Below are positions 27,102-58,943 of a DNA stretch of 64,000 bases, one piece after another. The stretch spans positions 3,719,149 through 3,783,148 of the forward strand of contig NZ_CP101166.1 of NCBI RefSeq assembly GCF_024298885.1, written 5' to 3'. The notes under the pieces are model-generated. The model saw only the letters and a list, made by a program, of their open reading frames with translations. It had not been told where the DNA came from and made no database searches. The stretch is from Haloglomus halophilum. Its GTDB lineage: Archaea; Halobacteriota; Halobacteria; Halobacteriales; Haloarculaceae. Every line of letters begins with the position of its first letter. Position 1 is the stretch's first letter. The translations under genes and the position numbers were made by a program.

Positions 27102-27402
27102 GGTGGGTCACTCACGGCGGCCCCGTGGCAGGCTACCGGGGCACCACACTCCAGGCTGGGAGGTCCGCCTCGCGTGTGCGGCGCCCGGCGCACGGCCCGT
27201 GTCCGCCCGAGGCGTGCCTGAGAGAACCATGCACATCCCGGGCCCTTAACGAGGTATGTAGTCCTCCTGATGGATTCCGGGGACGAACGACCGACCCCCG
27301 GGCAGCAGAACTCCGGGACGACGGTCCCGTGACGGTTCCGTCATGCCGTGGATCGTTCGCGCCCGAGGGTTTTCCTCCGTTCGTCCCGCGCGTTCCTCAC
27401 GG
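27102..27402. other. Divergent intergenic region
   Basis: 301 bases between the receiver gene and the CapA-type gene. A CCCTTAACG motif at about 27242-27250 could serve either strand as a core promoter. The frame of the CapA gene is open from 27343 (ATG), so the true start could lie inside this stretch. No other gene or RNA is seen. Confidence 0.4.
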
Positions 27403-28503
27403 ATGTCGCCGACACGCCGGGCCACTCTCGCAGCCACCGCGTCGCTCGTCCCGATGGGGGGCTGTGCTTGGTCGTCCCTGCCGGGGTCGACGAGCGACGG
27501 GGGAGCCGGTGGCGACGCGCGGATCGGGCTGGCTGGCGACGTGATGCTGGGGCGGGGGGTCGACGAGCGCCACGCCGACCGACGACCGGAGTCGGTCTGG
27601 GGGACGCTACTGCCCGACCTGCGTCGACTCGACGGCACCCTCGCCAATCTCGAATGCTGCATCTCCGAGCGTGGTACCCGGTGGCCGGGGAAGGGCTACT
27701 ACTTCCGGACTGGCGGGTGGGCGCTTCCGGCGCTGGACGTGGCCGGCATCGGGGCGGTCAGCCTCGCCAACAACCACACGCTCGACTTCGGGCCCTCGGC
27801 GCTCCGGGACACGCTCGCCGGGCTCGAACGGACCGGAATCGGATCGTCCGGCGCCGGGACGGACCGGCGGGCCGCGCTGGAACCCGCCATCATCGATGTC
27901 GGCGAGGTCTCGGTCGCCATCCTCGCGCTGACCGACCGGATGCCGGCCTTCGCCGCCGGCCCCCGGCGGCCGGGCACCGCGAGGATGGGTCTCGGCGAGC
28001 GGAGCTGGCGTGCGCGCCGGCTCGTCCGGGACGTGCTCCGGCGGCCGGCCGTCGACCGTGCGGACCTCGTCGTCGCCTCGCTCCACTGGGGGCCGAACTG
28101 GACGCTGGTCAAACACCCCGCACGCCGAGCCTTCGGCCGGTGGCTCGTCGACGCGGGCGTCGATGTCGTCCACGGCCACAGCGCGCACGTCCCGCACGGC
28201 ATCGAGGTGTACGAGGGCGCCCCCATCCTCTACGACTGCGGCGACCTCGTCGATGACTACCTCGTGAAGGAGGGCCTCCACAACGACCGGAGCTTCCTGT
28301 TCGAACTCGTGGTCGAGGCCGGCAGCGTCGTCGCGGTCCGACTGCATCCCGTCGAGATCCGCCGGAGCACCGCCCACCGCGCGACGGGCGACGTGGCGCG
28401 CTGGCTGTTCGAACGGATGCGGACGCTCTCGTCGCGGTTCGACACGGCGGTCCGCGTCGAGTCGGGGACGGGGGCGCTTCGGGTGTCGGTCACCGAGGGG
28501 TGA
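27403..28503 (+). CDS. CapA-type (PgsA-like) lipoprotein
   Basis: 366 residues. A signal with a twin-Arg pair and lipobox-like end (PTRRATLAATASLVPMGGC) suggests a Tat-exported lipoprotein. The rest is a CapA/PgsA calcineurin-like fold: GLAGDVMLGRGVD, NLECCIS, NNHTLDFG, SLHWGPNW, GHSAHVPHG. In bacteria CapA acts with poly-gamma-glutamate synthases, but no pgsB/C genes are visible, so another surface phosphatase or polymer role is likely. The ATG at 27403 puts the signal at the N-terminus; an ATG at 27343 is possible. Confidence 0.8.
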   Translation: MSPTRRATLAATASLVPMGGCAWSSLPGSTSDGGAGGDARIGLAGDVMLGRGVDERHADRRPESVWGTLLPDLRRLDGTLANLECCISERGTRWPGKGYYFRTGGWALPALDVAGIGAVSLANNHTLDFGPSALRDTLAGLERTGIGSSGAGTDRRAALEPAIIDVGEVSVAILALTDRMPAFAAGPRRPGTARMGLGERSWRARRLVRDVLRRPAVDRADLVVASLHWGPNWTLVKHPARRAFGRWLVDAGVDVVHGHSAHVPHGIEVYEGAPILYDCGDLVDDYLVKEGLHNDRSFLFELVVEAGSVVAVRLHPVEIRRSTAHRATGDVARWLFERMRTLSSRFDTAVRVESGTGALRVSVTEG

Positions 28504-28576: not shown

Positions 28577-30169
28577 CTACCCATCGAGGGGTACCTCGAT
28601 GAGCGAGAGCGCGTCGTCGTCGACCGCGGACAGCGCATCCTCGAACTCGTCGAGCGACGCCGCGCGGGTGGCATCGAGGCCGAAGCTCTCGGCGAACGCC
28701 ACCAGATCCGGGTTCCCGATCCCGGTTCCGTAGTGTTCACCGGTGTGGTCGGCCTGTTTCTCCGAGATGAGGCCGTAGTCGTCGTCGCGCCAGACGATGG
28801 TGGTGAACGAGCAGTCCAGCCGCTTCGCCGTCTCCAGTTCGGCGGCGTTCATCAGGAACCCGCCGTCGCCGGTCCCGACCACGACGTTCGCGTCCACCGC
28901 GAGGTCCGCTGCGAGACCACCGGGGACGGCGATACCCATGCTCGCGAGCCCGTTCGAGATAATGCAGCGGCCGGGCTCGAAGACGGGGAAGCGCTGGGCG
29001 ATGGCCATCTTGTGGCTCCCCACGTCGGAGACGAGGACGTCCGCGTCGGCCATCGACTCCCGCAGGAGCGGGAGCGTGTTCGCGACCGTCACGGGGTCGT
29101 CCGCCGACGGACGGGTCGTCGCGTGCTCGAAGACGCGCTCGTGGGCGTCCACGCACCAGGGGTCCCACGACCGGTCGACGGCGGCGGCGAGTCGCTCCAG
29201 TCCGGCCGTGGGGTCACAGACCAGCTCCACGTCGGGGTTGTAGTGGGTGTACACCTCGGCGGGTTCACTGTCGAGGTGGACGACTTGCTTCTCGCCGTCG
29301 GGGTTCCACCCCGCCGGGTCGTGCTCGGCGATGTCGTACCCGACCGCGAGGACGGTGTCGGCGGCGTCGACGGCGCCTCCGGCGTTCCCATCGGGGCCCG
29401 AATCGAGCGTCATCAGGGAGCGCTCGTCGCGGTCGGGGAGCGCGCCCTTCGCCATGTACGTCGACACGACGGGGACCCCTGTCCGGTCGACGAAGGTCGC
29501 GAGCGCGCTCGCGGCGTCGGCTCGGACCGCGCCGTTGCCGGCGAGGACGAGCGGCTGGTCGGCCGACTCGAGGAGCGAGACGGCCGCAGCCAGTGTCTCG
29601 TCGTCGGGCGCCGGTCGGGCGACCGACTCGCGAATCGGCAGTGGCTCGGCATCGGTCGTCTCGGCCGCGACGTCCTCGGGGAGTTCGAGGTGGGTCGCGC
29701 CGGGTTTCTCGTACTCGGCGACCTTGAACGCCTTCCGGACGGACTCGGCGACTGCGGTCCGGTCCGAGATCTGCGCGTTCCACTTCACCAGCGGCTCGAA
29801 CGTGCCCACGATGTCGAGTTTCTGGTGGCTCTCCTTGTGGAGCCGTTCGCGACCGCCCTGCCCGGTGATGGCGACGAGCGGCGACTTGTCCAGTTGCGCG
29901 TCGGCCACGCCGGTGAGGAGATTCGTCGCGCCCGGGCCCAGGGTCCCCAGACAGACACCAGCCTCGCCGGTCAGGCGGCCGTGGACGTCCGCGATGAACG
30001 CCGCTCCCTGCTCGTGGCGGACCGGCACGAACGTGAGCGAGGAGTCACGGATGGCGAACAGCAGGTCCTCCAGTTCCTCGCCCGGGACGCCGAAGACGTG
30101 CTCGACGCCCTCGGCCTCGAGACAGGCGACGAGGCACTCCGCGACGGTCCGCGAGCCATCGTCCGTCAC
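28577..30169 (-). CDS. ThDP enzyme like acetolactate synthase; 2-oxoglutarate decarboxylase candidate
   Basis: 530 residues with the three ThDP-enzyme domains: PYR (about 8-175) with catalytic Glu 53 in PVRHEQGAAFIAD, middle domain (about 195-330), and PP domain with GDGG...N-type Mg/ThDP motif (GTGDGGFLMN, ending WRDDDYG). HKESHQKLDIVGTFEPLVKWN resembles the cyanobacterial 2-oxoglutarate decarboxylase class rather than IlvB. No small (ACT) subunit gene lies near. Its ATG overlaps the stop of the dehydrogenase gene by 4 bases (ATGA), so the two are translated together. Confidence 0.8.
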   Translation of the reverse strand: MTDDGSRTVAECLVACLEAEGVEHVFGVPGEELEDLLFAIRDSSLTFVPVRHEQGAAFIADVHGRLTGEAGVCLGTLGPGATNLLTGVADAQLDKSPLVAITGQGGRERLHKESHQKLDIVGTFEPLVKWNAQISDRTAVAESVRKAFKVAEYEKPGATHLELPEDVAAETTDAEPLPIRESVARPAPDDETLAAAVSLLESADQPLVLAGNGAVRADAASALATFVDRTGVPVVSTYMAKGALPDRDERSLMTLDSGPDGNAGGAVDAADTVLAVGYDIAEHDPAGWNPDGEKQVVHLDSEPAEVYTHYNPDVELVCDPTAGLERLAAAVDRSWDPWCVDAHERVFEHATTRPSADDPVTVANTLPLLRESMADADVLVSDVGSHKMAIAQRFPVFEPGRCIISNGLASMGIAVPGGLAADLAVDANVVVGTGDGGFLMNAAELETAKRLDCSFTTIVWRDDDYGLISEKQADHTGEHYGTGIGNPDLVAFAESFGLDATRAASLDEFEDALSAVDDDALSLIEVPLDG

Positions 30170-31557
30170 GCCCCGTCACCTTCCGATTCGAGGCCGTGGT
30201 TGACGAAGACGGTCTTCCGGTTGACGAACTCGTGGATGCCGTGGCGGGAGAGTTCGCGCCCGTAGCCCGAATTCTTGATGCCGCCGAACGGCAGTCGGGG
30301 GTCGGATTTGACGTACTCGTTGACGAAGCAACAGCCCGCTTCGAACCCGCGGGCGAACCGCTCCCCGCGGTCGAGGTCGCTCGTCCAGACGCTCGCGCCC
30401 AGTCCGAGGTCCGAGTCGTTGGCGAGTTCGAGCGCCTCGGCCTCGCTCTCGACCTCCATCACAGCGGCCACGGGGCCGAACGTCTCCTCGCAGGCGGCCG
30501 CGGCATCGCGCGGCACGTCCGTCAGCACCGTCGGCGGGTAGAAGGCGCCCTCGCGGTCCAGTGGCTCGCCGCCGAGTGCCACGTCCGCACCCGCCTCCAC
30601 CGACCGCTCGACCTGGTCGTGGAGTTCCTCCATGAGGTCCGGGCGGGCCATCGGGCCGATGTCGGTGCCCTCGTCAGCAGGGTCCCCGACGGTCAGGGCG
30701 TCGACCTTCTCGACCAGGCCCCCGACGAACGCGTCGTAGACGTCCGTGTGGACGATGAAGCGCTTCGCCGCGATGCAGGACTGGCCGTTGTTCTGGACCC
30801 GCGCGGTGACGGCCTTCTCGACGGTCTCCTCGAGCGGGGCGTCCTCGAGCACGACGAACGGGTCCGAGCCGCCGAGTTCCAGCACCGTCTTCTTCAGCTC
30901 GCTCCCGGCCTGCTCGGCGACGGCACGGCCCGCGGGCTCGCTCCCGGTCAGCGTCACCGCCCGGACGCGGTCGTCGGCGATGATCTCGTTGGCGGTCCCC
31001 GAGCCCACCAGTAGCGTCTGGAACGTGCCCCCCGGGACGCCCGCGTCGTGGAGCACCTCCTCGATGGCGAGCGCACAGCCCGGGACGTTGGAGGCGTGCT
31101 TCAGGAGCCCGACGTTCCCGGCGGCGAGGTTGGGCGCTGCGAACCGGAACACCTGCCAGAACGGGAAGTTCCAGGGCATCACCGCCAGGACCGGTCCCAG
31201 CGGTTCGTAGCTCACGAACGAGCGGGTGTCGGCCCCGGTACCGATGACCTCGTCGGCGAGTTGCTCGTCGGCGCGCTCGGCGTAGTACTCACAGACCCAC
31301 GCGCACTTCTCGACCTCGGCCCGGGCCTGCTCGATGGGCTTGCCCATCTCCCGGGTCATCAGCTCGGCGTACTCGTCGGTCCGCTCGCGCAGCAGGTCGG
31401 CCGCGCGTTCGAGATGGCCGCAGCGGTCCTGGGTAGTTCGCGCGCTCCAGTCCTCGAACGCTGTCGCCGCCCGGTCGAGCGCGGCGTCCACCTCCGCTTC
31501 GGTCGGCTCCTCGTACGTCTCGATCCGGTCTCCGGTCGCCGGGTCCCGTGACTCCAT
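30166..31557 (-). CDS. NAD(P)-dependent (succinate-)semialdehyde dehydrogenase
   Basis: 463 residues of the ALDH superfamily. Motifs: MPWNFPFWQVFR, GNVGLLKHASNVPG, general-base Glu 227 in LELGG, nucleophile Cys 261 in NNGQSCIAAKR, and PFGGIKNSGYGRE near the end. Length and motifs match the SSADH (GabD/YneI) group. The gene is first in a two-gene operon with the ThDP enzyme, which suggests that the substrate is a semialdehyde formed by 2-oxoacid decarboxylation. The start is taken at the ATG at 31557; the upstream frame is Pro/Arg-rich. Confidence 0.87.
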   Translation of the reverse strand: MESRDPATGDRIETYEEPTEAEVDAALDRAATAFEDWSARTTQDRCGHLERAADLLRERTDEYAELMTREMGKPIEQARAEVEKCAWVCEYYAERADEQLADEVIGTGADTRSFVSYEPLGPVLAVMPWNFPFWQVFRFAAPNLAAGNVGLLKHASNVPGCALAIEEVLHDAGVPGGTFQTLLVGSGTANEIIADDRVRAVTLTGSEPAGRAVAEQAGSELKKTVLELGGSDPFVVLEDAPLEETVEKAVTARVQNNGQSCIAAKRFIVHTDVYDAFVGGLVEKVDALTVGDPADEGTDIGPMARPDLMEELHDQVERSVEAGADVALGGEPLDREGAFYPPTVLTDVPRDAAAACEETFGPVAAVMEVESEAEALELANDSDLGLGASVWTSDLDRGERFARGFEAGCCFVNEYVKSDPRLPFGGIKNSGYGRELSRHGIHEFVNRKTVFVNHGLESEGDGA

Positions 31558-31690: not shown

Positions 31691-32518
31691 ATGCCTCCGG
31701 CCAACCTCCGAGGGACCGTCCGGTTCTACCTGCTGGACCACGAGACTCCGCTCGGGAAGGCCATCGACATCGGGCTGCTGGTCCTGAACCTGCTGTTCGT
31801 CGTGGTGCTGGTCGTGGAGACCTATCCGCTCCGGCCGGCGACGGCGGACCTCCTCCGGACGGCCGAGGTGTCACTGGCGATACTCTTCCTCGTCGAGTAC
31901 GTCCTCCGGCTGTACGGTGCCGAGTCACGGATGTCGGAGGCGACGGACCCGTACACGGTGGCCGACCTCCTCGCGGTCCTTCCCACCATCCTCGTGTTCG
32001 TCGTGCCCGGTGTGGCCCTCGCGTTCGTGGCGGAGATCGGGTTCATCCGGGCGCTCCGGGTGGTCCGAGTCCTCCGCTTCTACCGGTTCACCCGCGACGC
32101 CGAGTTCTTCTTCGGCACCGTCTCGGACAACACCCTCCGGGCGGTGAAACTCCTGTTGACCGTACTCGTCGTCTTCTTCCTCTCGGCAGGGCTGTTCTAC
32201 AGCGCAGAGTACGCCGTCAACCCGGACGTGAACACGTTCGGTGACGCGTTCTACTACACCGTTGTCACGCTGTCGACGGTCGGGTTCGGTGACATCCTGC
32301 CGACGACCGCCGCCGGGCGGTGGGTGACCGTCGCCTCCATCCTCGGTGCCATCATCCTCATCCCGTGGCAGGGGAGCCGCATCGTCCGCGAGTGGGCGCG
32401 CCGAGACCGTGTGGACGTGACCTGTTCGAACTGCGGCCTCGCGGCCCACGACCGCGATGCCTCGCACTGCAAGGCCTGCGGCGAGGTCATCTACCAGGAG
32501 TACGACGGCGAGCCCTGA
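31691..32518 (+). CDS. Voltage-gated cation channel with zinc-ribbon tail
   Basis: 275 residues. Six membrane helices; S4 is R120-x2-R123-x2-R126-x2-R129-x2-R132, a classic voltage sensor, and the filter TVGFGD (196-201) follows a pore helix, typical of K+ channels (KvAP type). The cytoplasmic tail has CSNC (245-248) and CKAC (260-263), a compact zinc ribbon. The tail is likely a redox or protein-binding module. The ATG at 31691 is preferred over a GTG two codons before it. Confidence 0.88.
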   Translation: MPPANLRGTVRFYLLDHETPLGKAIDIGLLVLNLLFVVVLVVETYPLRPATADLLRTAEVSLAILFLVEYVLRLYGAESRMSEATDPYTVADLLAVLPTILVFVVPGVALAFVAEIGFIRALRVVRVLRFYRFTRDAEFFFGTVSDNTLRAVKLLLTVLVVFFLSAGLFYSAEYAVNPDVNTFGDAFYYTVVTLSTVGFGDILPTTAAGRWVTVASILGAIILIPWQGSRIVREWARRDRVDVTCSNCGLAAHDRDASHCKACGEVIYQEYDGEP

Positions 32519-50407: not shown

Positions 50408-51358
50408 TCACTTGTGCGCGTCCATGAGGTCGTAACTGCGCTCCCACTCGTAGTCGTCGTCGTGGTAGCGCTCCGCGAGCGGGTCCTCGGGCACGTCGCC
50501 GTGTTCGCGTTTCTCCTGCTGATAGGACGGCCGGTCGGGGTCGTGGTAGAACCGGCCCGTCAGCACCTCGCCCTCGTGGAGGGCGTCCTCGACGTCGTGC
50601 ATCATCTCGGAGGCCTCGCGGCGGTCCCGGTGGTCGAACTCGTAGTCGTCGGACTGCTGGACGTCGATGTACGGGACGTACTGCTTGGCGTCCTTGTTCC
50701 AGGTGGGACACTGGGTGAGGAAGTCGACGTGCGCGAACCCGTCGTGCTGGATGGCCTCCTTGAGTATCTCCTGGGCCTGGTTCGGGTTCACGGCCGCGGT
50801 GCGCGCGACGTACGACGCGCCCCCGACGAGCGAGAGCGAGAGCGGGCGGATGGGCGCCTTCGCGGAGCCGTGGGGCTGGGTCTTCGACTTGTGGCCCTTC
50901 GGCGAGGTGGGCGAGGTCTGACCCTTCGTCAGCCCGAAGATCTCGTTGTTGAACACGATGTACGTCATATCGTGGTTCTCGCGGGCGGTGTGGATGAAGT
51001 GGTTCCCGCCGATGCCGTAGCCGTCGCCGTCACCACCCGCGGCGACCACTTCGAGGCCGGGGTTGGCGAGTTTCGCGGCCCGCGCGACCGGCAGCGAGCG
51101 GCCGTGGATGGAGTGGAAGCCGTAGCTCTCGAAGTACGAGGAGAGCTTGCCCGAGCAGCCGATGCCCGTGACGAGCAGTACCTCCTCGGGCGTGTAGCCC
51201 AGGTCACCCATGGCCCCTTTCAGCGCCTTCAGGACGCCGAAGTCGCCACAGCCGGGGCACCAGGTGGCCTGCGGTTCGATACCAGGCGTGAACGCCTCCC
51301 GGTCGGTCGGTTCCCGCTCGGTCTCGTCGTCGTGCTGGTGGAGTGGTGTGAAGCTCAT
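50408..51358 (-). CDS. porB: 2-oxoacid:ferredoxin oxidoreductase, beta subunit
   Basis: 316 residues. ThDP-binding beta subunit: TWCPGCGDFGVLKAL, GIGCSGKLSSYFE, GRSLPVARAAKLANP, AGGDGDGYGIGGNHF with the GDGD Mg/ThDP motif, and TQCPTWN. The WCPGCGDF and CSG/CPTW Cys can ligate one [4Fe-4S] cluster. Size of both subunits (316 and 628) fits the halobacterial pyruvate enzyme (porAB) better than the smaller korAB, as I recall them. It oxidises a 2-oxoacid to acyl-CoA with ferredoxin. Starts 1 base after the alpha-subunit stop. Confidence 0.88.
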   Translation of the reverse strand: MSFTPLHQHDDETEREPTDREAFTPGIEPQATWCPGCGDFGVLKALKGAMGDLGYTPEEVLLVTGIGCSGKLSSYFESYGFHSIHGRSLPVARAAKLANPGLEVVAAGGDGDGYGIGGNHFIHTARENHDMTYIVFNNEIFGLTKGQTSPTSPKGHKSKTQPHGSAKAPIRPLSLSLVGGASYVARTAAVNPNQAQEILKEAIQHDGFAHVDFLTQCPTWNKDAKQYVPYIDVQQSDDYEFDHRDRREASEMMHDVEDALHEGEVLTGRFYHDPDRPSYQQEKREHGDVPEDPLAERYHDDDYEWERSYDLMDAHK

Positions 51359-51359
51359 C

Positions 51360-53246
51360 TCAGTCGCTCCCCGCGGGGACGTAGCGCGTGGACGCGGTCG
51401 CGGGGTCACCGCTGCCGAGGCCCTCGACGGCCTCCACGATCTCGTGGGGCTCGAAGGGCTCGCCGTTGTACTTGAGGAGGCTGTGCAGGATGTCGCCGTA
51501 GGCGCCGAGTTCGCGCTGGACGAGGCCGCGGAACTGCCCCGTCGCGTTCATCTCGACGACGAGGCAGGTCTCCACGCTGTCCAGGAACTCCCGGATGTCT
51601 CCGTCAGGGAACGGCATCAGGTCCGAGACCGAGAGCGAGGCCACGTCGTGCCCGTCGTCGACGAGCCGGTCGACGGCCTCGTGGACGGTGCCCTGGTTGG
51701 AGCCGTAGGTCATCACGCCGACGGTGGCGTCGGTCGCCCCGTGGCGCACCTGGTTGCTCTCGCGCTCGTCGAGGCGCTCGCGGATGGCCGCCAGTTTCCG
51801 CATCCGCCGGTCCATCTGGGCGACCCGGTTGTCGGGGTCCTCCGAGATGTGGCCGGTGGGGTGGTGCTCGTTGCCGGAGGCGAGGTAGCGGCCGTCGGCC
51901 TGCCCCGGGATGGAGCGCGGCGCGACCCCATCACCCTCCGGCGGGTCGTGCTGGAACCGCTCGAACGTGCCCGTGGCGTAGTGGGCCGCCTCCGCGAGTT
52001 CCTCCTCGGTGAGCGTCTTCCCGAGGTCCGGCGACGGCTCCCGGTCGAAGAACTCGGCGTCGACGTTGCGCAGCTCGCCGGACAGCTTCTGGTCGTAGAC
52101 GACGATGGCGGGCAGGTGGAAGTCGTAGGCGAGTTCGAACGCGAGCCGGGTCTGCTCGTAGGCTTCGCGCTGGTTGCCCGGCGCGAAGACGACGCGACAG
52201 GAGTCACCCTGGCTCGTGTAGAGGACGTGTTCGAGGTCGCCCTGCTCGGTCTTCGTCGGCATCCCGGTCGAGGGGCCCGCGCGGGTCGCCTCCACCAGGA
52301 CGAGCGGCGTCTCGGTCATCTCCGCGAGTCCCAGCGGCTCGGACATGAGCGCGAACCCACCACCGGAGGAGCCCGAGAGTGACTTGACACCGGCGTGTGA
52401 GGCCCCGAGCGCCAGCGCGGCCGCGGCGATCTCGTCCTCGACCTGCTCGGCGATACCGCCCATGTCGGGCAGGTGCTGGCTGAGCAGGGTGAACACCTCC
52501 GTCCACGGCGTCATCGGGTAGCCGGCGACGAACCGACAGCCCTCGTCGATGGCGCCGTAGGCGATGCCGTTGGAGCCGGAGACGAGCGCCTGCTCGGCGT
52601 CGTGCTCGCCCTGGGGCATCCGGAGGTCGTGGGTGTGCTCCAGTTCGTTGGCCTGCTCGGCGGCGTACTCGAGTATCTCGAGGTTCGCCTCGAGCACGTC
52701 GCCGCTCATCCGGTCCTCCATCAGCTTCTCGATGGGTTCGAGCGGGTAGGAAAGCAGCGCACAGGTCACGCCCACACCGGCCGTGTTGCGCATCACCTCG
52801 CGGCCCTGGTCGCGGGCCATCCCACGGAGGTCCATCGGGTAGACGTGCCAGTTGTGCTCCTCGGCACGCGCCTCGAAGTCCTCGATGACGCTTGCGTCCA
52901 GCAGGCCCTCGTCGTAGACGACGACCCCGCCATCCCGGAGTTCGTCGAGGTTCTCGGCGAGCGGCTTGGCCTGCTCGTTCCCGTAGTAGGCGTGTTCCTT
53001 CGGGTTGCGGGCGAACGAGTCACCTAGCGCCAGCAGGAAGTTGAAGCCGTCACCACGGGCCCGTACCGGCTGGTCGTCGGCCCGAACCTCAACGTACGTG
53101 TGGCCACCACGGATCCGCGAGGGGTAGTGGCGATGCGTGAACACGTGGAGGCCGGACCGCATCAGTGCTTTCGCGAAGTTCTGGCTGGTCGAGTCGATCC
53201 CGTCACCGGAACCACCCGCGATACGCCAGACGATTTCTCCTGTCAT
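51360..53246 (-). CDS. porA: 2-oxoacid:ferredoxin oxidoreductase, alpha subunit (gamma fused)
   Basis: 628 residues. Residues about 1-190 are the gamma domain (RIAGGSGDGIDSTSQ), then the alpha pyrimidine-binding domain (GSNGIAYGAIDEGC, GYPMTPWTEV, QVEDEIAAAALALGASHAG, GSSGGGFALMSEPLGLAEM) and the C-terminal domain (GSNQGTVHEAV, FPDGDIREFL). Operon order is alpha then beta. Main decarboxylating step for pyruvate or 2-oxoglutarate in haloarchaea. The frame is open 43 codons upstream, but MTGEIVWRIAGG fits the family start. Confidence 0.88.
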   Translation of the reverse strand: MTGEIVWRIAGGSGDGIDSTSQNFAKALMRSGLHVFTHRHYPSRIRGGHTYVEVRADDQPVRARGDGFNFLLALGDSFARNPKEHAYYGNEQAKPLAENLDELRDGGVVVYDEGLLDASVIEDFEARAEEHNWHVYPMDLRGMARDQGREVMRNTAGVGVTCALLSYPLEPIEKLMEDRMSGDVLEANLEILEYAAEQANELEHTHDLRMPQGEHDAEQALVSGSNGIAYGAIDEGCRFVAGYPMTPWTEVFTLLSQHLPDMGGIAEQVEDEIAAAALALGASHAGVKSLSGSSGGGFALMSEPLGLAEMTETPLVLVEATRAGPSTGMPTKTEQGDLEHVLYTSQGDSCRVVFAPGNQREAYEQTRLAFELAYDFHLPAIVVYDQKLSGELRNVDAEFFDREPSPDLGKTLTEEELAEAAHYATGTFERFQHDPPEGDGVAPRSIPGQADGRYLASGNEHHPTGHISEDPDNRVAQMDRRMRKLAAIRERLDERESNQVRHGATDATVGVMTYGSNQGTVHEAVDRLVDDGHDVASLSVSDLMPFPDGDIREFLDSVETCLVVEMNATGQFRGLVQRELGAYGDILHSLLKYNGEPFEPHEIVEAVEGLGSGDPATASTRYVPAGSD

Positions 53247-53320
53247 GATACCATGCGCCCGGAGGCGCCTTGGTGCGAGATTTGCCGGGAGAGGTGAAAA
53301 GCGTTTGCGCCGTGGTAGCA

Positions 53321-53334
53321 CACGAAAGTTCGTG
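53321..53334. promoter_or_regulatory. Short dyad between porA and the DICT gene
   Basis: CACGAA AG TTCGTG, a 14-base dyad with perfect 6-bp arms, in the divergent 205-base region, about 75-88 nt upstream of the porA start. A candidate operator; short enough to be chance. Confidence 0.3.
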
Positions 53335-53411
53335 ACTTTCCCGTGACGGAACGGCGATGAGGGACCGATTTGCACGCCGACCGACCGTGGATTCTAGGTG
53401 ATTTGGGAGAA

Positions 53412-54373: not shown

Positions 54374-54396
54374 CCCTCCGTGTGTCCTGCAGAGCA

Positions 54397-56403
54397 ATGA
54401 GTTCCGACTCCTCCCGCGTGACGCGTGCGCTACGCGTCCTGCTCGCCCTGGTACTGGTCTTCTCGATGGTCGCCGCGTTCGCCGCACCCGCGTCGGCGTT
54501 CGTCCGTGGCAAACCGGATATCTCGGTCACACTTTCGGACGACACCGTACAGCCCGGTGGCACGACGACGCTCGACCTGACCCTGGTCAACAGCGGGGAT
54601 GTAGAGATCGGTGCGACCAGCCAGGCCCTCGCCGGCAAGGAACAGGTCGTCACGACGGCGCGCGGAACCGTCGTCCGGGTCGACCCGGCGACGAAGAACA
54701 ACCCCATCGAGGTCGAGACCGACGAGGTGGCCGTCGGGTCGATGCCCGAAGGCGCTCGCTCGGTCCCCGTCCAGGTCAGCGTCCCCGAGGACGCCGAGCC
54801 CGGCACGTACGAGTTCGACGTGGCGGTCGAGTACGACTACTACGACATCATCCCCGGCGCACCCGTCAACAGGTACGGGGAGGAGCACCGGACGAAGGAG
54901 TTCACCGTCGAGGTGACCGTCGAGGAGGCCGCCCGCTTCGAGGTCGTCGACACGGAGACGAACGCCCCCATCGGCGGCCCGGGGACGGTGAACGTCACGG
55001 TCGCGAACGTCGGGAACGAGGTGGCCTCTGACGCGTCGCTCTCCCTGCAGTCCACGAACGCCGCGCTGACGTTCGGCGGGTCGGGGACGACCGAGTCGTA
55101 CGTGGGAAGATGGGCGCCGGGCGAGCGCCGGACGGTCTCGGTCGGTGCCACCGTGGCCGAGAGCGCGACGAACCGGTCGCTCGCGCTCCGGACGACCGTC
55201 GACTACGAGGACGCCGACGGGAACGCCAGGCAGTCGACGCTCTCGACAGGTGTCGCTCCGGACCCGGAGCAGCGGTTCACCGTCGTATCGGCCGCCACCG
55301 GGGCCTCCGTCGGTGATACGGACTCGACCGTCCTCCTGTTCACCAACGAAGGTAACCGGACACTCGAGGACGCGACGGTACGACTCGAATCGGACAACGC
55401 GGCGCTGACCTTCGGTGGGGCCCGGACCGCCCGCGTCCACATCGGGAGGTGGCCAGCGGGCGAGATCGAGCGAGCCGAGGTGGAGACGCAGTTCGCCCCG
55501 TCCGCCGAGCGACGCAGCTACGCCGTCGACGCGACCATCTCGTACACCTCCCCCGCCGACCGGACCGAACAGGTGGATGTCGGGACGTTCGGCATCACGC
55601 CGGCGGAGGAGCAGTCCTTCGACCTCGCCAGCCACGAGACGAGCCTCCGGGTCGGTGAGGAGGGCCAGCTGACCGGCACGTTCGTCAACGAGGGGCCCAG
55701 GGAGATCGAGAACGCCGTCCTGGTGCTGGAGCCACCGGCCAACGTCGTGACCGCCGAGCGCGAGTACGCGCTGGGCGACCTCGACGAGAACGCCAGCGTC
55801 GACTTCCGCTACGACGTGGAGGTCTCCTCGGAGGCCCGCGAGGGGCCGCGCCAGTTCGCCTACCGGCTGCGCTACGACACGGCCGGTGACGACACCGTGA
55901 CCTCGGACCCGCTGTACGCCCGCGGCACCGTGGCCCAGCAGCGTGATACGTTCTCCGTCGACACGGACGCGGCCGTCGCGGCCGGGTCGTCGGAGACCAT
56001 CGAGATGCAGGTCACGAACGAGGGCGAGGAACCCCTGACCGCGGTGAGTGCGAAGCTGTTCGCCGACGCCCCCATCAGCGCGAGCAACGACGAGGCCTTC
56101 GTCGAAGGGCTGGGCGCCGGCGAGACGGCGACGCTGACCTTCCGCATCTCCGCGAGCGGTGACGCCATCGCGAAGCCGTACCCCGTCTCGCTGGACTTCC
56201 AGTACGACGAACCGGACGGTGACACGAAGGTCTCCGACAGCTACCAGGTCGCCATCGACGTGACCGAGCGGAGCGGCGGCGGGCTGCTGTCCACGTTCGC
56301 CGTCCCCGGCGGCGTTGGCGGGGCCGGTGTCGGCCTCGGTGTCGTGCTCTCGCTGGGCGGCCTGGCCGCGGTCGGGCTGGGCCTCGTCGGGCGACGGGAA
56401 TGA
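54397..56403 (+). CDS. Secreted CARDB/COG1361-type surface protein
   Basis: 668 residues. A signal peptide (about 10-34, ending APASAF) leads to four or five immunoglobulin-like repeats with the pattern PGGTTTLDLTLVNSGDVE / TVNVTVANVGNE / TVLLFTNEGNR / QLTGTFVNEG / TIEMQVTNEGEEP. Two repeats are near-identical in parts (NAALTFGG...T-x-S/H-IGRW). The end has a Gly-rich spacer and one membrane helix (about 640-664), so it is anchored outside the cell. Overlaps the exporter gene by 4 bases. Confidence 0.85.
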   Translation: MSSDSSRVTRALRVLLALVLVFSMVAAFAAPASAFVRGKPDISVTLSDDTVQPGGTTTLDLTLVNSGDVEIGATSQALAGKEQVVTTARGTVVRVDPATKNNPIEVETDEVAVGSMPEGARSVPVQVSVPEDAEPGTYEFDVAVEYDYYDIIPGAPVNRYGEEHRTKEFTVEVTVEEAARFEVVDTETNAPIGGPGTVNVTVANVGNEVASDASLSLQSTNAALTFGGSGTTESYVGRWAPGERRTVSVGATVAESATNRSLALRTTVDYEDADGNARQSTLSTGVAPDPEQRFTVVSAATGASVGDTDSTVLLFTNEGNRTLEDATVRLESDNAALTFGGARTARVHIGRWPAGEIERAEVETQFAPSAERRSYAVDATISYTSPADRTEQVDVGTFGITPAEEQSFDLASHETSLRVGEEGQLTGTFVNEGPREIENAVLVLEPPANVVTAEREYALGDLDENASVDFRYDVEVSSEAREGPRQFAYRLRYDTAGDDTVTSDPLYARGTVAQQRDTFSVDTDAAVAAGSSETIEMQVTNEGEEPLTAVSAKLFADAPISASNDEAFVEGLGAGETATLTFRISASGDAIAKPYPVSLDFQYDEPDGDTKVSDSYQVAIDVTERSGGGLLSTFAVPGGVGGAGVGLGVVLSLGGLAAVGLGLVGRRE

Positions 56404-58943
56404 GCGGCCCCGTCGACTACCAGCGGTTCGTCGACGCGGCGGACCACCAGATCGTCAACCATCCCAGGCGGGTTGTCGGGGCGTTCCTCGTCCTGACACT
56501 GGTGTTCGGGGCCGGGCTCGGCGCCGTCTCCACGGACGCCGGAACCGAGGGGTTCACCCAGGACGTGCCCGCGCAGGTGGCGTTCGAGGAGGTGCAAGAC
56601 GAGTTCGAGACGAGCGCGTTCACGACCGACACCGGGAGCACACAGCTCATCCAGCGCGGCGAGAACGTGCTCTCGAAGAGGGGGCTGTTGCGGATGCTGA
56701 AGGCTCAGAACCGCGTCGAGGACCACGATGAGCTCCGGGTCACCTCGACGGCCTCGGCCGCGACCATCGTGGCGACCACGCTGGACCCACAGGCCCGAAC
56801 GACCGAGCAGCAGCTCCGCGCGGTCGAGCGGGCCACGCCGCGTGAGATAGACCAGGCCGTCCGGACGGCTGCCGACCGGAACCCCCGGTTCGTGGGGCTC
56901 CTCTCGAACGACTTCAACCGCGGCTCGGCGTCGGCCGGCGCCACCATCGGCGTCGTCACCCACGAGGTCCCGGCCGGGCTCTCGGCCTCCGCGGGACAGG
57001 GTGGCTCCAGCCCCCTGACGCCGCTCCAGCTCCGGACGGACTACGTCGTCGGGAGCGTCGGCGGCGAGATGATCGTCTTCGGGTCCGGCATCATCTCGGC
57101 CGAGTTCGCCAACGTCATCGGTGATTCGCTCATCATCGTCGTGCCCGCCGCGGTGCTGTTCATCCTCCTGTTCCTCATCATCTCCTACCGGGACCTCGCG
57201 GATCTCCTGCTGGGGATGGTGGCGCTGGCGATGGGGCTCATCTGGACGTTCGGGTTCATGGGGCTTGCGGGCATCCCGTTCAACCAGATTCTCATCACCA
57301 TCCCACCGCTGTTGCTGGCGGTCGGCATCGACTTCGGCATCCACGCGGTGAACCGCTATCGCGAGGAACGGGTGGCGGGCGCCGATATCGGCCCGGCGAT
57401 GCGCATCACGACCGACCAGTTGCTGGTCGCCTTCTTCATCGTCACCGGGACGACCGTCATCGGCTTCTCGGCCAACCTCACGTCGGCGCTGCCACCGATC
57501 CGGGACTTCGGCATCGTCGCCGCCGTCGGCATCGTGTTCACCTTCCTCATCTTCGGGGTGTTCCTCCCCGCGGCGAAGGTGCTGCTGGACCGCTCCCGGC
57601 AGAAGTACCCTATCCCGACGTTCTCGACGACGCCCCTGGGCGCGGAGGGCTCACGGCTGGGCAGGGCGCTCTCGGGGGGTGTCTTCATCGCGAAGCGGGC
57701 CCCCGCCGTCTTCCTCGTCGTCGCCCTGCTCGCGACGGGCGGGATGGCCTACCACGCGACCGGCGTCGACACGACCTTCTCGAACGAGGACTTCCTGCCG
57801 CCGGAGGAGAACCCGGACTACCTGATGGCGCTCCCGGAGCCGTTCAAGCCCTCCGAGTACACCGTGACGGCCCTGACCAACTTCCTCCAGGAGAACTTCG
57901 AGTCGAGCCAGTCCGACACCGTGACGGTGTACGTCGAGGGGCCGATGCGCCAGGACCAGTCGCTGGAGGTGCTGTACCGTGCCGGCGACGACCCGCCCGA
58001 CGCGTTCGTCCGCCAGGGCGGTCGTGCCGACGCGACCTCCATCATCACCGTCATCGACGAGTACGCCGCCCGGGACGAGGAGTTCCGGAAGCTGGTCGAA
58101 CGCAACGACCGCAACGGCAACGGCGTCCCCGACGACGACCTGCCGGCGGTGTACGCCGCGCTGACGGCCGAGGACTCGCCGGTCCGTGGGCAGGCGCTGC
58201 GCTACATCACGGGCGACCGGCGCTCCACCCGGCTGGTCTACAGCGTCAAGGCCGACGCCACACAGAGCGAGATCACCGAGGATGCCCGGTCCGTCGCGGC
58301 CGATATGGAGCGGCCACGCACCTCGTTCCGGGCGACCGCCACGGGCTCGACCGTCGTGTTCGAGGCCATCTCCGGCCTCATCCTCGACTCCGCGCTCACC
58401 TCGCTGATCATCGCGCTGGGGGGGACCGCGGTCTTCCTCCTGTTGGTCTACTGGGTGCTCGAGGGCAAACCCTCGCTCGGCATCGCCAACCTCGTCCCCA
58501 TCGTGGTCACGGTGTCGTTCGTCGCCGGGTCGATGCGCGTGTTCGGCATCTCGTTCAACGCCTTCACGGCGACCATCCTCGCCATCACCATCGGGCTGGG
58601 CATCGACTACTCGGTCCACGTCACCCACCGGTTCGCGGACGAGTACAGGCAGCGGGACCTGTACGAGGCACTCGACCGCACGGTGCGGGGGACCGGCGGG
58701 GCGCTCGCCGGCTCGATGCTGACCACCGTCTTCGGCATCGGCGTGCTGGTCCTGTCGGTGTTCCCCGCCATCGGCCAGTTCGGCATCCTCACGGGGCTGA
58801 GCGTCATCTACGCCTTCGTCGCCTCGCTGCTCGTCCTGCCCTCGGCACTCGTCGTCTGGGCGCGACTGTTCGGTGGCGGCGGCACGACCGCCCGAAGCGG
58901 CGACACGCCACCGTCATCGGCGGCGGCCGGCGACGCGGACTGA
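56400..58943 (+). CDS. RND/MMPL-family exporter
   Basis: 847 residues. A first helix (about 26-46), an outer domain (about 47-235), six helices, a second outer domain, and five more helices. The internal signature IDFGIHAVNRYREE in the first half and LGIDYSVHVTHRFADE in the second are the paired GxDYxxxxxxR motifs of MMPL/RND proteins. Starts in the ATGA overlap of the surface-protein gene, so the two are co-translated. Likely exports lipids or hydrophobic compounds with the partner's help. Confidence 0.87.
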   Translation: MSGPVDYQRFVDAADHQIVNHPRRVVGAFLVLTLVFGAGLGAVSTDAGTEGFTQDVPAQVAFEEVQDEFETSAFTTDTGSTQLIQRGENVLSKRGLLRMLKAQNRVEDHDELRVTSTASAATIVATTLDPQARTTEQQLRAVERATPREIDQAVRTAADRNPRFVGLLSNDFNRGSASAGATIGVVTHEVPAGLSASAGQGGSSPLTPLQLRTDYVVGSVGGEMIVFGSGIISAEFANVIGDSLIIVVPAAVLFILLFLIISYRDLADLLLGMVALAMGLIWTFGFMGLAGIPFNQILITIPPLLLAVGIDFGIHAVNRYREERVAGADIGPAMRITTDQLLVAFFIVTGTTVIGFSANLTSALPPIRDFGIVAAVGIVFTFLIFGVFLPAAKVLLDRSRQKYPIPTFSTTPLGAEGSRLGRALSGGVFIAKRAPAVFLVVALLATGGMAYHATGVDTTFSNEDFLPPEENPDYLMALPEPFKPSEYTVTALTNFLQENFESSQSDTVTVYVEGPMRQDQSLEVLYRAGDDPPDAFVRQGGRADATSIITVIDEYAARDEEFRKLVERNDRNGNGVPDDDLPAVYAALTAEDSPVRGQALRYITGDRRSTRLVYSVKADATQSEITEDARSVAADMERPRTSFRATATGSTVVFEAISGLILDSALTSLIIALGGTAVFLLLVYWVLEGKPSLGIANLVPIVVTVSFVAGSMRVFGISFNAFTATILAITIGLGIDYSVHVTHRFADEYRQRDLYEALDRTVRGTGGALAGSMLTTVFGIGVLVLSVFPAIGQFGILTGLSVIYAFVASLLVLPSALVVWARLFGGGGTTARSGDTPPSSAAAGDAD

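Follow-up and report, generated by a model that had tools for sequence, protein, structure and literature searches.

A candidate operon for a ferredoxin-free shunt from 2-oxoglutarate to succinate in Haloglomus halophilum and its spread among archaea

A predicted 2-oxoglutarate decarboxylase and succinate-semialdehyde dehydrogenase

A stretch of 64,000 nucleotides from the haloarchaeon Haloglomus halophilum (contig NZ_CP101166.1, positions 3,719,149 to 3,783,148; hereafter the window) carries an aldehyde dehydrogenase (ALDH) gene followed directly by the gene for a thiamine diphosphate (ThDP) enzyme. Very probably they make up an operon of just two members that serves a shunt from 2-oxoglutarate to succinate and would need neither CoA nor ferredoxin. 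Non-oxidative decarboxylation of 2-oxoglutarate by the ThDP enzyme would give succinate semialdehyde and CO2, the ALDH would convert the semialdehyde to succinate using NADP+ in preference to NAD+, and the two genes would be co-transcribed. Both activities, the NADP+ preference and the co-transcription are predicted from gene order, family, residues, the phylogenetic tree and co-occurrence. On the same grounds the first-pass annotation, which had proposed a 2-oxoglutarate decarboxylase (2-OGDC) and a succinate-semialdehyde dehydrogenase (SSADH) of the cyanobacterial type, appears to have been right in kind. The ThDP enzyme is probably misnamed by NCBI, which calls it "acetolactate synthase large subunit".

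Both genes lie on the reverse strand. The upstream open reading frame (30166..31557, 463 aa, ATG start) encodes the ALDH, a predicted SSADH with NADP-type cofactor residues, and the downstream one (28577..30169, 530 aa, GTG start) encodes the predicted 2-OGDC, a member of the NCBIfam family PRK08322 that carries the acetolactate synthase name. The ALDH gene ends with GCG TGA and the ThDP gene begins with GTG ACG, the two sharing the four nucleotides GTGA (30166..30169, reverse strand). This confirmed the four-base overlap and the pairing of an acetolactate-synthase-like gene with a semialdehyde dehydrogenase gene that had been noticed earlier. The codon-position base composition of both genes is like that of other genes called by the same rule.

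The ThDP enzyme resembles cyanobacterial 2-oxoglutarate decarboxylases

Among the 25 NCBIfam models shown, PRK08322 (NF006187) was the only one that the ThDP enzyme matched over the cut-off (560 bits, cut-off 509). The AlsS models PRK08617 and TIGR02418 (398 and 357 bits, cut-offs 510 and 551), the IlvB model TIGR00118 (316 bits, cut-off 538) and the glyoxylate carboligase (GCL) model (229 bits, cut-off 791) remained below their cut-offs, as did the pyruvate oxidase models, and matches to oxalyl-CoA decarboxylase/2-hydroxyacyl-CoA lyase sequences from the PDB reached at most 143 bits. The nearest PDB sequences are acetolactate synthases. The same genome encodes at least four further ThDP-superfamily enzymes (seven matches in all), one of which (L002) is a clear IlvB with 668 bits against TIGR00118. 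In the accessible part of PMC4224347, the cyanobacterial 2-OGDC gene was already called an acetolactate synthase gene by family.

A reference set independent of the window was obtained by searching named genomes with the SSADH of Synechococcus sp. PCC 7002 and taking the best 80 loci. Among these, 52 were cyanobacterial, and in 44 of the 52 the SSADH gene was followed on its own strand by a ThDP gene, which is also the gene order of the window; among the 28 non-cyanobacterial loci only one (L030) had such a gene. The gap between the two genes was at most 505 bp in 43 of 45 loci. PMC5160925 describes an ogdA ssaD operon in Synechococcus sp. PCC 7002. After removal of the fragments L028, L030, L065 and L071, the 45 ThDP matches left 41 full-length rows, to which the window enzyme is 43-47% identical. 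Its identity is about 46% with one cyanobacterial row, 33% with AlsS and 32% with the IlvB of its own genome. As a separate observation, the contig of L030, with its cyanobacterial-type SSADH-ThDP pair, is labelled Candidatus Gracilibacteria and is perhaps mis-binned.

The active site was compared with that of the Microcystis enzyme MaKGD, for which the accessible text of PMC10418658 lists the ThDP residues E50, H385, M410, D435, D462 and Y465 and, as contacts of docked 2-oxoglutarate, V382, K386, A408, Q254, L467 and K471. The published numbering fits the cyanobacterial rows: L032 carries all 17 residues exactly where the paper places them, and with the GDGG motif as anchor each MaKGD residue is present in 28 to 41 of the 41 rows. 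All six of these ThDP residues are found in the window enzyme, as are five of the six docked contacts (V382, K386, A408, L467 and K471), and MaKGD Ala384 is a serine. The window enzyme has these ThDP-binding residues and five of six docked residues, Gln254 being the exception and Lys471 varying among its relatives, in common with the known system, represented by OgdA/SsaD (2-OGDC/SSADH, A2770/A2771 of Synechococcus sp. PCC 7002) and MaKGD. Lys387 (codon 29009..29011, reverse strand), the equivalent of MaKGD Lys386 (PMC10418658), is a lysine in 100/100 haloarchaeal rows, 41/41 cyanobacterial rows, 11/11 plasmid-borne members and 14/14 further archaeal members, and in 0/10 other ThDP enzymes. 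Ala409 likewise occurs in 100/100 haloarchaeal, 41/41 cyanobacterial and 0/10 other sequences. The ten other enzymes were four IlvB, three further ThDP enzymes of the same genome, two AlsS and one yeast acetohydroxyacid synthase (AHAS). The 100 haloarchaeal rows comprised 98 fetched places and the same-genus loci L019 and L020; excluded were the short L229 and L232, L001 and L018 as duplicates of the window, and L006-L017, L021, L022 and L106-L133 as earlier, shorter loci of sampled genomes. L009, L011 and L014, from genomes outside the class sample, were checked afterwards together with L229 and L232: all five have Lys387 and Ala409, with K, N, K, Q and a gap, respectively, at position 471.

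Over the full length of the protein, 39 columns were conserved in haloarchaea and cyanobacteria and unseen in the AlsS/IlvB rows, one was shared with AlsS alone and five with IlvB alone, a contrast that is somewhat overstated since the AlsS-only and IlvB-only columns required all rows to agree and the cyanobacterial ones 90%. The stretch of residues 111-131, HKESHQKLDIVGTFEPLVKWN (codons 29777..29839, reverse strand), had been named in the first-pass annotation as characteristic of the Synechococcus 7002 decarboxylase. The cyanobacterial consensus over 41 rows, a set outside which the 7002 ThDP protein lies, is HIESHQYLDLVAMFAPVTKWN, which the window motif resembles without being identical to it. 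The window motif is nearer to this consensus than to AlsS or IlvB, and its E113, S114, H115, Q116, W130 and N131 show no variation, to two decimals, across 101 haloarchaeal rows.

The aldehyde dehydrogenase has the residues of an NADP-dependent SSADH

Among all PDB sequences the best matches of the ALDH were the SSADH entries 4it9/3vz1 (E 4.8e-150), followed by the Sad-type SSADH 8qmq (E 7e-129). The entries 4it9/3vz1, together with 3vz3, represent the Synechococcus 7002 enzyme (3vz3 according to the accessible part of PMC7510979), with which the window ALDH shares 53.9% identity over 447 residues. The nine residues of note in the same source (Cys262, Glu228, Asn131, Trp130, Arg139, Trp135, Ser419, Lys154 and Ser157) are all kept in the window ALDH and in 58/58 ALDHs of at least 500 bits from the fetched haloarchaeal loci (58 of 60 matches; L154 and L172, below 500 bits, were excluded). 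Since Lys154 and Ser157, which set the NADP+ preference of SSADH (PMC7510979, accessible part), are among them, the window ALDH is predicted to prefer NADP+.

Phylogeny of the ThDP enzyme

Two sets of proteins were used for tree building, the first with 62 rows and the later one with 61, which included 14 further archaeal rows and left out the most distant outgroup. In the 62-row tree the PRK08322 proteins of haloarchaea, cyanobacteria and bacterial plasmids lie on one side of a branch labelled 91/88 and not starred; in the 61-row tree the haloarchaeal, cyanobacterial and other PRK08322 members lie on one side of a branch labelled 100/97 and starred. AlsS and IlvB are on the other side of this branch, and the haloarchaeal rows form a single clade in both trees (100/100). 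Constraining the haloarchaeal rows with IlvB was rejected by the approximately unbiased test (p-AU 0.005), and constraining them with AlsS was rejected less strongly (p-AU 0.0235). Of the classes from which the first-pass annotation wished to see the enzyme distinguished, IlvB was separated by tree and GCL and oxalyl-CoA decarboxylase by scores only; the firm grouping with IlvB that it had named as refutation did not occur. By its sequence, the window enzyme is a member of the family that holds the cyanobacterial 2-OGDC, a placement that does not amount to a sister relation with 2-OGDC.

Distribution and neighbourhood of the pair

In 292 haloarchaeal genomes, searched at E up to 1e-110 for the ThDP gene and at E up to 1e-100 for the ALDH, the former was found in 99 and the latter in 188; every one of the 99 ThDP-bearing genomes had the ALDH, 89 genomes had the ALDH alone and 104 had neither. 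At 48 of 100 fetched haloarchaeal ThDP places the ALDH gene was directly upstream, on the same strand and no more than 350 bp away; at 10 it was farther upstream but still within 4 kb, and at one it had another orientation. Because the genes adjoin in this order in 48 of the 100 places, the pairing appears to be more than chance.

In a sample of 294 genomes from the phylum, 46 matched the ThDP enzyme (E up to 1e-95), of which 16 were haloarchaea and 30 belonged to a second archaeal family (f19), which we take to be, probably, the Methanosarcinaceae. Fourteen of these 30 were fetched (L247-L260), and an ALDH of this type was directly upstream on the same strand in 13 of the 14, with two such ALDHs in L248, L253, L254 and L260. 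The f19 ALDHs keep most SSADH residues, the exceptions being Arg139 and Ser419 in L249, Cys262 in L255 and Asn131 in three loci. Neighbouring SSADH and ThDP genes therefore occur in three lineages: cyanobacteria, haloarchaea and f19.

Among plasmids, 154 records matched the ThDP enzyme, and the family was annotated as "acetolactate synthase large subunit" in the 11 that were fetched. On a Haloarcula JP-L23 plasmid the gene has the identical four-nucleotide overlap with an SSADH gene, and on a Halorussus plasmid the SSADH gene is convergent to the PRK08322 gene. The Haladaptatus plasmid has no SSADH gene within 5 kb but does have a succinate dehydrogenase subunit gene, and no annotated ALDH was present within 5 kb of the Streptomyces member. 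On Sulfitobacter and Dinoroseobacter plasmids (L238 and L241; Roseobacteraceae), gdhA, the gene for NADP-glutamate dehydrogenase, is directly upstream of the PRK08322 gene. Glutamate dehydrogenase can yield 2-oxoglutarate.

Evidence against the decarboxylase assignment and alternative functions

Several observations weigh against the assignment as a 2-oxoglutarate decarboxylase and SSADH pair. The docked contact Gln254 of MaKGD corresponds to Gly258 in the window enzyme; Lys471 is kept in the window and in 79/100 haloarchaeal rows, with Q, N, E or H in the other 21, and nine of the 14 f19 rows have H, N, E or D there; Ala409 is replaced by Cys or Ser in 4/8 bacterial members. Moreover, the contacts come from a docking model, and Lys386, Lys471 and Gln254 are not among the MaKGD mutants in the accessible part of PMC10418658. 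The ALDH scored 611 bits against its best NCBIfam model, the NADP-dependent SSADH model PRK09406 (NF006915), whose cut-off is 730. In the phylogeny, long-branch warnings were issued for both trees, some of them on bacterial rows and on AlsS/IlvB, and a group of haloarchaea and cyanobacteria alone was neither supported nor rejected (p-AU 0.163), the node being open in the 61-row tree. The co-occurrence of the two genes had a Fisher p of 3e-25, which ignores the relatedness of the genomes, and at 41 of the 100 haloarchaeal ThDP places no ALDH of this type was found within 4 kb. The Octadecabacter, P. putida and Rhizobium members had no ALDH annotated in the surrounding 5 kb; the ALDHs next to the Vibrio and Croceicoccus members look supportive by position and lack the SSADH residues, so they were not taken as further SSADH pairs. 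Given these deviating or missing ALDHs, one common substrate is not required for all PRK08322 enzymes. Compared with cyanobacterial OgdA/MaKGD, the window system is set apart by an identity of about 46%, the loss of Gln254, the four-nucleotide gene overlap and a host with two 2-oxoacid:ferredoxin oxidoreductases.

With Gln254 not conserved and Lys471 conserved in part, the enzyme might decarboxylate a different 2-oxo acid, such as 2-oxoadipate or some other dicarboxylate, whose semialdehyde would be the substrate of the ALDH. A ThDP decarboxylase followed by an ALDH is a general logic, and the substrates on which MaKGD was tested in PMC10418658 were only benzoylformate, pyruvate and three further monocarboxylic 2-oxo acids. 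This alternative nevertheless appears improbable, since the ALDH has the checked residues of the SSADH carboxylate pocket and SSADHs as its closest PDB sequences, gdhA adjoins the PRK08322 gene in two bacteria, and Lys387 is invariant.

An acetolactate synthase, either catabolic and AlsS-like or anabolic, would agree with the NCBI annotation, with the name of the best NCBIfam model and with the closest PDB sequences, and still seems slightly less probable than the use of another 2-oxo acid. AlsS (PDB 4rjj and 1ozf) has His115-Gln116 and the ThDP motifs as in the window enzyme but Ala or His at 387 and Gln at both 409 and 471, and its 33% identity is set against 46% for the cyanobacterial row. 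The IlvB/AHAS large subunit (L002; yeast 1n0h) also belongs to the ThDP superfamily but falls in a separate clade, with Gln at 387 and Trp at 471. The scores below the AlsS cut-offs, the two rejected tree constraints, the clear IlvB already present in the genome and the lack of an obvious role for an ALDH partner with acetolactate all argue against an acetolactate synthase. Least probable is a carboligase that would decarboxylate 2-oxoglutarate and then couple the resulting carbanion with another substrate, glyoxylate in the case of Mycobacterium Rv1248c (PMC10418658, introduction, accessible part), while the ALDH would serve gamma-aminobutyric acid (GABA) or other sources of succinate semialdehyde: 89/292 genomes do have the ALDH without the ThDP gene and hence other uses for it, but the ALDH is present in all 99 ThDP-bearing genomes and the two genes adjoin in three lineages.

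Relation of the predicted shunt to ferredoxin oxidoreductases

The predicted decarboxylase/SSADH shunt would operate beside another enzyme class. A 2-oxoacid:ferredoxin oxidoreductase, outside the gene pair and claimed earlier for the window, was confirmed there, with an alpha subunit ("type A"; 51360..53375, reverse strand) over the cut-off of TIGR03710 and a beta subunit (50408..51409, reverse strand) over that of TIGR02177. An oxidoreductase of the 2-oxoglutarate:ferredoxin (KorAB) type also moves 2-oxoglutarate towards succinate, yielding succinyl-CoA and reduced ferredoxin, and belongs to a different enzyme family. The genome has two 2-oxoacid:ferredoxin oxidoreductases, including the one in the window, and the pair therefore need not close the tricarboxylic acid (TCA) cycle here. 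Here the shunt would be expected to run beside the two oxidoreductases as a bypass or overflow that takes up 2-oxoglutarate/glutamate carbon and yields NADPH, not as the sole passage of the TCA cycle. The accessible text of PMC5160925 describes cyanobacteria as being without 2-oxoglutarate dehydrogenase.

A match to the window alpha subunit (E up to 1e-30, which includes the second type) was present in 291/292 haloarchaeal genomes, and according to the table the best E was 1e-250 or lower in all but G038, G057 and G261. The second type, with an alpha subunit of 589 aa (E up to 1e-150), was found in 285/292. Since the oxidoreductase is nearly universal, the predicted shunt is additional to it, a second route, in most haloarchaea. 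By subunit length, type A may be the pyruvate enzyme and type B (589 aa) the 2-oxoglutarate enzyme. Type B outscores type A against 6n2n (329 versus 248 bits) and against 8ys5, which is named "2-oxoglutarate synthase subunit alpha" (201 versus 154 bits), but is higher also against other oxoacid enzymes, which makes the split weak.

The second type was not found in seven of the 292 genomes, of which G042, G043, G044 and G273 have the ThDP gene and G045, G057 and G060 do not at the threshold used. With four against three, the numbers are too few for a trend, and a general loss of the second oxidoreductase in shunt genomes was not supported; since neither gene is present in G045, G057 and G060, a missing second type does not by itself speak for the shunt. 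Citrate synthase and a SucC-type protein occur in all four genomes with the ThDP gene. G042 and G043 each carry a single oxidoreductase and are without E1_dh enzymes; G273 combines a single oxidoreductase with five E1_dh matches. In G044 neither a POR_N protein nor any oxidoreductase was present, and this genome was kept out of the takeover case because of its E1_dh matches. Should the one oxidoreductase left in G042 and G043 be the pyruvate enzyme, the shunt would be their sole route from 2-oxoglutarate to succinate among the routes searched, to which the GABA shunt did not belong. It is possible, though we would rate it somewhat below an even chance, that PRK08322 consists mainly of 2-oxoglutarate decarboxylases (in cyanobacteria, haloarchaea, the second archaeal family and several bacteria) and that the shunt took over the link between 2-oxoglutarate and succinate in at least one haloarchaeal lineage without the common oxidoreductase (G042, G043).

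Genomic context

The pair is flanked by genes on the opposite strand, namely a convergent PGA_cap (capsule synthesis protein family) gene (27343-28503, forward strand) and, on the other side, a divergent gene (about 31700-32518, forward strand) whose match to a K+-channel model stays under the cut-off. Because both point the other way, the operon probably comprises just the ALDH and ThDP genes. Elsewhere in the same genome (L003; G000:C1 2088023-2092561), a second ThDP gene is followed by an ALDH gene; this ThDP protein is 25% identical to the window enzyme and under the cut-off of every NCBIfam model shown, and the ALDH, which is cut short where the locus stops, deviates at W130, W135 and S157. 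A further region of the window (54382-58943, forward strand) encodes an MMPL/Patched-type membrane protein adjoining a protein with NPCBM_assoc/CARDB domains.

Implications

The enzyme pair itself is known from cyanobacteria; surprising are its spread in archaea and the probably wrong database label. Among the open-access titles and abstract beginnings listed, no haloarchaeal or methanogen 2-OGDC was found, and the founding cyanobacterial paper (Zhang and Bryant 2011) may mention archaeal homologues. Co-mentions in the accessible literature were unrelated (the decarboxylase gene for polymer production in engineered bacteria, haloarchaea in the references). If the assignment is true, about a third of the sampled haloarchaea (99/292) would carry a ferredoxin-free TCA bypass under a misleading name, and a second arm able to yield NADPH and succinate semialdehyde would have to be added to models of central metabolism in haloarchaea. 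The importance of the shunt could be tested directly in those few genomes that lack the 589-aa oxidoreductase common to the others, and the tandem pair in the second archaeal family raises the same question there.

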